Assembly (NCBI GenBank): GCA_009746045.1
Contig: RPFO01000103.1
Coordinates: 191,001 to 255,000 of the forward strand
Source of the DNA: Mesostigma viride
Taxonomy: Eukaryota; Streptophyta; Mesostigmatophyceae; Mesostigmatales; Mesostigmataceae
Direction: 5' to 3'
DNA: 64,000 nucleotides
In this document: piece after piece, positions 4,601-21,550 of the stretch
Layout: each line of letters begins with the position of its first letter
Numbering within the stretch: the stretch's first letter is position 1
Notes under the pieces: model-generated
The model's database searches: none
What the model was told of the DNA's origin: nothing
What the model saw: the letters and a program-made list of their open reading frames with translations, nothing else
Translations under genes and position numbers: made by a program

Positions 4601-7600
4601 GAATTATTTGAGGTGGTCGCCTCTGCTTCCGCAGCACAGTTGTATGCTTGCCCGTCAATGTTGTCTGTGCTTGCCAAGATGTTATCTGCTGTTAGATCGT
4701 CTGATGGAACGGCTGCCTATCCAGCGGCTTGTCCATTTCTACTATCACCCTACGACTAGTGGTATTGTTGTCACTATTATCATGGTCACTATCTACACAT
4801 CATGGTCACTAAATCATCCTACGACTAGTGGTATTGTTGTCACTACTATCTATCTACATATCATGGTCACTACATTATCAACTGTGCGCACTATTTTTAT
4901 GCTCGGCCATCGCTTTTTCTCACCAAGTGTTTGCATCACGGTGCACACCTGTGCATGGCATGGCATGGCTGGGCGTGGGCGTGGGCGTGGGCGTGGGCGT
5001 GGGCGTGGGCGTGGGCGTGGGCGTGGGCGTGGGCGTGGGCGTGGGCGTGGGCGTGGGCGTGGGCGTGGGCGTGGGCGTGGGCGTGGGCGTGGGCGTGGGC
5101 GTGGGCGTGGGCGTGGGCGTGGCGTGTGATGGAATTTGGGTGGAGCGCCTGCAGCCGGCTTCGCGATGCACGCGTCCAACCTGATCGTGGACGGCCTGGT
5201 GGAGTACCGCGGTGCGTGTCCTCTTCCCGTCATGCTTCGCCGCTTGTCCTCTACCCCTCACGCCGCGGTGCGTGCCCCTCCTCCCTTGCGTCCGCGGGCC
5301 TTTCAAGTTTAATAGGTGTTCTGGTGTACTTAAAATCATTATCAGAGGCCTTAACAGACCTCGCGGAAGCGTCCAGCGTTGAAGAAGCATTAAGGTTGCC
5401 ACGCTCCTCCTCCTGCCATCTCTCTGGCACGCGCCGGTTCCCCTCGCCGGTCGTGCGTGCCCTCATGAGTGCCTCTTCACTCTGCCACCCGCCATGCCTC
5501 CTGCCCTCATACACATCCCCCATGTGCTCCCTGTCGCGCATGCCTTACCCCTTGTCCGCGCCACCTTGTGCAGCAGAGTATGTGTTCCCCCCCATGGTGC
5601 GCAGCCCTTTGTGATGCCTCGAAAGCCTCTCGATGTAATTTATGAAGTGATTTTTATTTGTGCCCTGGGAACGCACCAGCAAGTGGCGGCAACCTCTCCC
5701 CCGCTGCCCTGTGCCCATTGGTCTGCATTCTGCAAATGTCCTGTGTCCATTGGTGTGCAAATGCCCTGTGTCCATTGGTGTGCAAATGTCCTGTTGCCGT
5801 GGGCGTGCTATCCACAGGTGTTGTATTCGGAATTCCGTGAGCCTTGGGCGTGTTCCGGCCATCTCATCTTTGCTGCAAACGTGTTGCGCTCTTTGCACAA
5901 TGCACCATGCCGCGTTCTGCAGGTGACGTTTTCAGCATCGGTGGTAACGCGGGGCAGCCGACGATTCCCAACTTTCTGAAGATTGTGGGCCAGGTGGGGG
6001 GCCAGGTTTTCTGTCTGTTTTACAAATCCCATGTTTGTGTCGTGCTGTGAGTTGAATAGCTTTTAGCGATTACTTTTTGTGCGTCCTCTCAAGGTTGACG
6101 CACATCCTGTGCAGGATGTGCGTCAACCTTGAGTGCACGCACCAAAAAGTAATAGCTAAAAGCTATTCAGCTGTGTAGTTGGCAATAACTTATTCTAACG
6201 TCTGCCCCTTTGCCTGCCGTTTGTGGCGGCACATCGTTGCCATGCCACGTGGGCATCCGGTCGCATGCCTTTCCATAACACTTGCGGTGTCATTTTTCTA
6301 ATGCCCCTCGCCGTGACACATTTTTCCAACGCCCCTCGCCGTGCCCTTGCCCATAGCGCTTTTTTCTTTTTCCATACCAAGTGCCCGCTTGGCATACCAC
6401 TCATCATACCGTTTGCCACCTGGCTATCTACCAACTGCCCACTTGCCGCACTTCTTTGTTATGCCTTGTCCGTCACCGCGGAGCCTTGCCGCATGTACGG
6501 ACATCGCCCGTCTAATTATTGTTGCTCATTGCTTCATCTCGTTATTGTTGCTAGTTGCTGCCGCTGATTACTTTGTCTAACTAATTGTAGTTAATTCTTG
6601 TCGTACCCTTGTCAACGCGTGCCAACGTCTACGGCGCACCCACCCTCCAAGAATCCTTGCAGATTGCTTGTTCGTGTCGTACATCTTATTCTGGTCAACG
6701 CGTGGCAAGCCTTGCAGAGCGATGTGTACGGCCACCCCTTGCATAATTATTGTCGCTATTTGCTTCGCCAAAGTGATTGTTCTTAATTCTCGTCCTACCT
6801 CTTATTCTTGTCAACGCGTGCAGAGCGACGTGTACGGCGCCTCAATCGGCATCACAGGTGCGGCGCGGCGAAATATCTTGGCACGGGGGTAGCCTACTAT
6901 AGTCACTCTGGGATGAAACACAGCCTCTTTGTATCGTGTCTGTTGTGGACCGCGCGCCCATCGACATCACGTGTGCGGCACGGCCGCACTGATGCACGAG
7001 ACCACCCTTCTGTCGTCACTCTAGAGTACAATACAGTCACCATACAGTCACCATACCGCCACTCCATGTTCCGTGGATCGCGCGTCCATTGGCATCACGG
7101 GTGCGGCGTGGTGCTGCTACTCTAAGTTTCTCTAAGTACTCTGAGTACTACAGTATGGTCACTTTAGGTAGAATATGAGCACTCGGTGATCCATGGGCTG
7201 TCTACATGGGGCACATTCATCGGCATCACGGGTGCAGCGCAGCGATAGTGCTTGCTGCCCTGCTGTAGCCACTCTGGAGCATATTATGGTGGCTGCATAC
7301 TGTAGTCACGCCAGGTGTCGCAACGCTGTTCGATCGGCATCTCAGGTGCTGTGTGGTACTAGAATAAGTAGAATTTCTTTGTCACAGAACGGAGCTGATA
7401 CCCTACTCTGCCCTGTTTTAGACTAGGATATAGCCACTCTAGAGTCGGTTGTGGTCACTATAGAGTAGGATATGGTCACTCTGCATGGTGTGGATGAAGC
7501 GTCTGCTACCGGCATCCCACGTGCGGCCAATCCAATCCATTCATCACGTGCAGGCCTATTCGACGCGTCCAAATATAGCGCTAGTAGTTGGCAATACGGA

Positions 7601-21550: not shown

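Follow-up and report, generated by a model that had tools for sequence, protein, structure and literature searches.

Tandem repeats that run across a splice junction, at its 5′ or its 3′ boundary, have been described in amphioxus as 'mirages' (PMC3087553, PMC3902484). In the portions of these papers available to us, the repeat units measure 10-72 bp in Adh3, 150-160 bp in BflGb6, 157 bp in BflGb9 and 60/108 bp in PGBD5, RT-PCR suggests that splicing is undisturbed, and the authors propose how introns might be gained (PMC3902484). A duplication over an intron-exon boundary is reported to have created a new intron in potato (PMC4974935, accessible text), and intron gain by tandem duplication has been reviewed (PMC3443670, likewise in part). 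A sequence-only reading of one locus of the alga Mesostigma viride had placed exon borders within arrays of their own decayed copies and knew of no standard name for the pattern; the amphioxus reports, in the parts consulted, already provide one. We conclude that the Mesostigma arrays are very likely minisatellites of the mirage type, born by tandem duplication across splice junctions in events that were probably not aimed at them, and then decaying. As far as the literature was searched, the kind is already known, and what is new is the lineage, the frequency, the decay series and the short exon share of the repeats. Neither green-alga mirages nor counts over many junctions were found among the best literature matches, a set with most subscription papers outside its scope.

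The window analysed here is the whole 64,000-nucleotide stretch of contig RPFO01000103.1 (assembly GCA_009746045.1) from position 191,001 to 255,000. Its plus strand carries at 1320..21550 a gene for a PLB1-like GDSL lipase (Pfam Lipase_GDSL, E 3e-15); a solved-structure search returned no convincing relative. The first five coding exons lie at 1320-1379, 1527-1682, 2655-2685, 5155-5211 and 5923-5993. Those numbered 5 to 13 follow at 6824-6857 (5), 8487-8620 (6), 10409-10456 (7), 14936-15009 (8), 17187-17271 (9), 18527-18665 (10), 19500-19568 (11), 20227-20280 (12) and 21414-21550 (13), all on the plus strand. The top protein match of the predicted gene is jgi/Mesvir1 Mv11275-RA.1 (hereafter P0001), Mesvir1 being what we take to be the code for Mesostigma viride. 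It matches the joined model for its first 341 residues, which run to the end of exon 12 and slightly past it, and the model that agrees with this public protein has 14 coding exons where 13 had been claimed. The introns of the gene also hold fold-back, MITE-like inverted repeats at 6050-6172 (~123 bp) and 2952-2991 (~40 bp), both 90% complementary. An 87-bp stretch occurs, 94% identical, in intron 6 (9040-9126) and intron 12 (20725-20811), and being common to both introns it is a dispersed repeat.

Each of the 26 edges of the gene was represented by 30 exon and 15 intron bases and aligned to as much as 1500 bases of neighbouring intron, both on its proper side and, as a control, on the wrong one, with 200 shuffles each. 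(The test took exon end 1380 for 1379 in the first listed exon, a base on which no match rests.) Own-side copies beat all 200 shuffles at 12/26 edges, namely the donors of exons 3, 5, 6, 7, 8, 9 and 10 and the acceptors of exons 5, 6, 8, 10 and 13, whereas no edge of the 26 did so on the wrong side (top score 21, minimum shuffle fraction 0.02). The comparison bears out the rule that acceptor copies lie upstream and donor copies downstream. All seven exons originally named (5, 6, 7, 8, 9, 10 and 13) have own-side copies, and the previously unnamed donor of exon 3 has one as well. An iterative search, with a per-edge threshold near 1%, returned 24 copies at 11 of the 26 edges, some of them covering the exon edge without crossing the junction itself; it lost the exon 8 donor.

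All of these copies are on the plus strand. Exon 5 has acceptor-side copies at 6584..6823 (edge copies 6608-6637 and 6688-6732) and a donor-side array of five copies at 6858..7527, at offsets of 115, 243, 374, 488 and 663. The arrays had been said to start at 6484, where no copy exceeds the threshold; the earliest detected lies at about 6584-6608. Exon 6 is preceded by one acceptor-side copy 577 bp upstream (7902..7952) and followed by donor-side copies within 8722..9249 (8722-8755, 8832-8867 and 9213-9249), and donor-side copies of exon 7 occupy 10477..10564. The acceptor-side copies of exon 8, within 13550..13866 (13550-13583, 13662-13680 and 13837-13866), are separated from their exon by simple arrays. 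Between 10861 and 16184, introns 7 and 8 contain very long simple arrays (GTGG x86, CTCC x71, TTACC x229, GCATG x45, and also AGT/CAG triplets and CAGC/AGTC tetramers). Donor-side copies of exon 9 lie at 17328..17482 (offsets 81 and 164), with two more look-alikes, recognized by eye, up to 17627. Exon 10 has an acceptor-side copy 100 bp upstream (18413..18440) and donor-side copies at 18798..18934 (offsets 160 and 261). The acceptor-side copies of exon 13 fall within 21164..21351. One has its junction at 21189 and is the terminal exon of P0001; the other has its junction at 21308.

By BLAST, the PLB1 copies are about 66-90% identical to their exon edges. The proposed spacing of 80-130 bases describes most of them: of the 14 distances between one donor copy and the next, 11 fall at 78-131 bp and the rest at 160, 175 and 374, in a count that includes copies at 7521, 17514 and 17627 chosen by eye, of which the iterative search recovered only 7521. 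Copy number per edge does reach the upper end of the proposed two to five, but the exon 3 donor and the exon 6 and 10 acceptors have a single copy. A fall in similarity with distance was not confirmed. Among seven edges with at least two BLAST matches, the bit score drops at only three (the donors of exons 5, 9 and 10); it rises at the acceptors of exons 5 and 13 and the donor of exon 6, and the trend at the exon 7 donor is ambiguous. Similarity extends into unit interiors in the donor array of exon 5 (7/15 pairs, p < 0.05), at exon 9 (3/10), at exon 13 (1/3) and in the single pair tested at the exon 5 acceptor; interiors are mostly without significant similarity in the exon 6 donor array (1/6 pairs) and at exon 10 (0/3). 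Because interiors match away from the junction, some of the PLB1 copies are tandem repeats and not lone exon fragments; where interiors do not match, they have either decayed or were never shared.

Arrays of this form also occur in unrelated genes. Profile searches for the chaperonin (PF00118) and kinesin (PF00225) families located further genes; a selection of these was analysed, with splice sites refined according to score and phase. The counts leave out weak junctions (splice score of 6 or less), queries that were masked or of low complexity, and sequences too short to serve as target or query; a near-identical CCT copy on contig C887 and an intron-free open frame on C2011 were left out too. 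Across 17 such genes, 28/95 junctions have an own-side copy with a score of at least 34, compared with 0/95 on the wrong side, 1/95 for reversed and 0/95 for reverse-complement controls; the pattern extends beyond PLB1. BLAST over 20 genes including PLB1 found a junction-spanning copy at 33/146 junctions (23%), in 13 of the 20 genes, at 22/79 donors and 11/67 acceptors. Without PLB1 the count is 23/120, and the two kinesin genes added last had no copies at their 10 junctions. Junction arrays look common in this alga.

That the similarities are accidental, or artefacts of assembly, has next to no probability in our estimate. The shuffled, reversed, reverse-complement and wrong-side controls speak against chance, and copies at 65-90% identity are not an expected product of misassembly, although misassembly is conceivable for young copies that are nearly identical, and redundant contigs do exist. 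One example is a pair of kinesin loci (on contigs C2 and C622, one of them 26 kb and the other 7 Mb long) that is 99.96% identical over 5.4 kb, from which it follows that the assembly contains redundant sequence. This pair was considered as a test of copy gain and loss and rejected, being a redundant contig and not a separate locus.

Set beside the amphioxus mirages as described in the accessible parts of those papers, the Mesostigma arrays share a repeat unit that spans the exon-intron boundary, copies that lie in the intron with the authentic boundary at the exon (wrong side 0/95 and 0/26), duplication of both donor and acceptor boundaries, frequent retention of AG or GT, and overlapping unit lengths. 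Unit identity is 81-100% in BflGb6, 88-100% in several chaperonin and kinesin arrays and about 66-90% in PLB1. Every age is represented among the Mesostigma arrays, whose identities range between 100% and about 65%. The two differ in reach: mirages in the literature consulted are reports on single lancelet genes, whereas here about a fifth of the junctions sampled in 20 genes of a basal streptophyte alga carry such copies, at all stages of decay.

The younger chaperonin and kinesin arrays show the structure most cleanly, as head-to-tail repeats of exon edge plus intron with units of 48-97 bp. CCT_C1468 has a 76-bp unit made of 20 exon and 56 intron bases (96, 94 and 88% identity), KIN_C2189 a 70-bp unit (97 and 90%), KIN_C2 a 97-bp unit (93%) and KIN_C1502 units of 83-88 bp (92-100%), with one edge of KIN_C1502 combining young copies (92-100%) with older ones (74 and 79%). 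In CCT_C1702 the authentic edge and nine copies follow one another in exact 48-bp steps. Clean young arrays in unrelated genes, grading into the PLB1 type, support the original proposal of repeated short tandem duplication across splice junctions. In such a process, a short tandem duplication would span the junction, with the nearest copy mostly offset by ~50-180 bp, and the site beside the intact exon would stay functional, that is, the first donor or the last acceptor. The remaining copies would turn into intron sequence, lengthening the intron as they decay. Duplication would probably not be directed at junctions, since the same process goes on within intron interiors. The mutational route would presumably be slippage, end joining or unequal exchange.

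The Mesvir1 PLB1 gene model uses the exon-nearest donor at exons 5, 6, 7, 9 and 10 and the exon-nearest acceptor at exons 5, 6, 8 and 10. In CCT_C1702 the reading frame is open throughout and the nine copies are in frame; the Mesvir1 CCT3 protein (P0121) nevertheless passes from LRAK straight to HAADEC, and CCT3 of Klebsormidium and Chara from QAK to HAN. Since LRAK joins HAADEC directly, the repeats are missing from both the gene model and the conserved protein. Evidence on splicing comes from RT-PCR in the amphioxus papers, as far as accessible, and from gene models in Mesostigma, where CCT3 skips its copies and PLB1 ends in one. The decoys are probably near-neutral, with exon-proximal sites presumably the ones used in RNA. 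Boundary-crossing duplication and the re-use of parental splice signals are shared with intron gain by tandem duplication, as the accessible text of the review describes it (PMC3443670). There the outcome is a new intron, whereas in Mesostigma the duplication extends an intron that was already present and, as far as protein alignments of PLB1 and CCT3 tell, leaves the number of introns as it was; neither protein requires a new one.

Introners and other transposon-made introns produce bulk change in intron content, introners being dispersed copies of one family. A dispersed element of this sort (introner, MITE or satellite) that carries splice-like sequence and inserts beside exons might be suspected in a genome of which 66% is repeats according to the available part of its description (PMC6947507). 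We nonetheless consider this barely credible. An introner places the same element at many sites, whereas the exon 5 array (6858-7350) matches the genome once, as does exon 6, in a search that skips common words and was run for these two sequences. Every array, moreover, repeats the edge of its own exon rather than a sequence common to all.

Exon borders are probably not favoured birthplaces of the copies. Intron-interior anchors, tested in the same way as junctions (n=608 for BLAST, n=382 at score 34), show that tandem duplications are frequent within introns, with copies at 108/608 anchors. At 90% identity or more, copies occur at 8/146 junctions and 67/608 anchors; at 80-90%, at 11/146 and 24/608; at 70-80%, at 11/146 and 16/608; and below 70%, at 3/146 and 1/608. 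Only the older copies are enriched at junctions, contrary to a favoured birthplace. A bootstrap over genes gave junction/anchor ratios of 0.51 (0.20-1.27) for young and 2.5 (1.1-4.3) for old copies, with a quotient of 4.8 (1.35-15). The deficit of young copies at junctions has p 0.045 when clustering is ignored, but the bootstrap interval spans 1; the 67 young anchors fall into ~16 clusters, and simple tests therefore exaggerate the young difference.

The concentration of old copies at exon edges would arise because the exon partner there is held constant by coding, while two intronic partners both diverge. The apparent attraction to exon borders thus looks largely like an effect of visibility, an account that is supported but not decisively so. 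In older donor copies, identity is 0.76-0.86 in the exon part and 0.67-0.70 in the intron part, counted from base 12 onward. The corresponding values for older acceptor copies are 0.77-0.87 in the 20 exon bases nearest the junction, 0.67 deeper in the exon and 0.65-0.67 in the intron from base 13 onward, so the asymmetry is not clear for acceptor copies past 20 exon bases. At a score of at least 34, copies are found at 28/95 junctions and 31/382 anchors, a 3.6-fold excess that exceeds the ~2-fold expected from visibility. Transposons among the anchors may explain part of it.

Two near-identical chaperonin loci, on C1641 and C887, allow duplication to be seen between copies of one sequence. They align over 5,736 bp with 100 mismatches and seven indels of at least 6 bp in the aligned parts, a comparison that omits a ~3.1 kb stretch found in one locus only. 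One indel, of 43 bp, is a near-perfect tandem duplication within an intron, and another, of 7 bp, is a perfect tandem duplication; neither was seen to touch a junction. Copy-number instability between haplotypes is a trait of mirages in the accounts available to us; the 43-bp duplication differs between two Mesostigma loci but lies inside an intron, and no junction polymorphism of the mirage kind was seen in the locus pairs compared.

The exon share of the duplicated unit is short: at most 50 bp in 31/33 junctions, with a median of 26 bp. Of the 27 junctions whose offset is no more than 180 bp, 3 have an exon share above half of the available length, and the CCT_C1702 donor is among these 3; P0121 indicates that this exon 3 donor was placed one 48-bp unit too far downstream, and its exon share is therefore overstated. 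We simulated duplications with uniform breakpoints, decayed them and applied the same detection (700 made, 508 found). In the simulation 54% had an exon share of at most 50 bp and 55% were above half, and the difference from the observed shares has a one-sided Mann-Whitney p of 0.0003. Neutral duplication with breakpoints placed uniformly would not be expected to give such short exon shares. Our preferred reading is that duplications creating strong decoys are lost; a mutational cause is possible.

These observations also bear on a junction-specific process, such as transcription- or splicing-associated damage or repair, that would preferentially copy exon edges. The 3.6-fold excess of junctions over anchors at fixed score is in its favour, as are the short exon share relative to the simulated 54% and the higher rate at donors than at acceptors. 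Copies of at least 90% identity, however, are not enriched at junctions, tandem duplications are common in intron interiors, and the one tandem duplication that differs between two loci lies off any junction. We regard such a process as unlikely and favour duplication not aimed at junctions.

GT or AG is kept in 27/32 older copies where 0.69 is expected (p 0.04). This estimate is biased because alignments had to cross the junction, and we rejected selection maintaining decoy splice sites, for which the excess is too weak as well as biased. The same retention, with the same ascertainment bias, could be cited for the view that the copies are parts of alternative or mutually exclusive exons kept for alternative splicing, as could the Mesvir1 PLB1 model, whose last exon is the copy of exon 13 at 21189. 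Most copies, however, consist of one splice site and an exon fragment, offsets show by inspection no preference for multiples of three, and the Mesvir1 CCT3 protein omits nine in-frame copies. Exon 13 itself is instructive here. The conserved exon lies at 21414-21550, and its LWN motif is present in 11/11 relatives compared; P0001 ends instead in the decayed upstream copy (21189-21240), from which its last 16 residues are read, and the motif is absent from both P0001 and the copy. Either the gene model chose a decoy, or the copy is used as an alternative end. Gene models in genomes with such arrays can terminate in a decoy. As a general explanation of the arrays, retention for alternative splicing is highly improbable, and we continue to read the copies as products of tandem duplication left to decay.

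Exon edges serve as reference copies that escape decay, and the arrays therefore allow intron growth to be read. They also provide, in conserved genes, a naturally occurring set of duplicated donors, often of equal strength, that bears on splice-site choice. A wider picture, which we put forward tentatively and with more doubt than conviction, is that Mesostigma arrays turn over genome-wide at about one in five junctions, that introns grow from their ends, that splicing removes decoys with more than about 50 exon bases, and that copies occasionally become exons. If so, exon edges would serve as undecaying references for the duplication history of introns at large; the PLB1 gene model at exon 13 might hint at such an occasional recruitment of a copy.

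The window contains several further features beyond the PLB1-like gene. A chromodomain LTR retrotransposon at 29310-35785 encodes a gag knuckle, reverse transcriptase, RNase H, integrase and a chromo domain. Coding-like modules, 70-99% identical, are arranged in tandem at 43517-46441 and again at 59355-62217. On the minus strand, a 958-codon open frame with a RING finger (55407-58283) lies in the most GC-rich part of the window.
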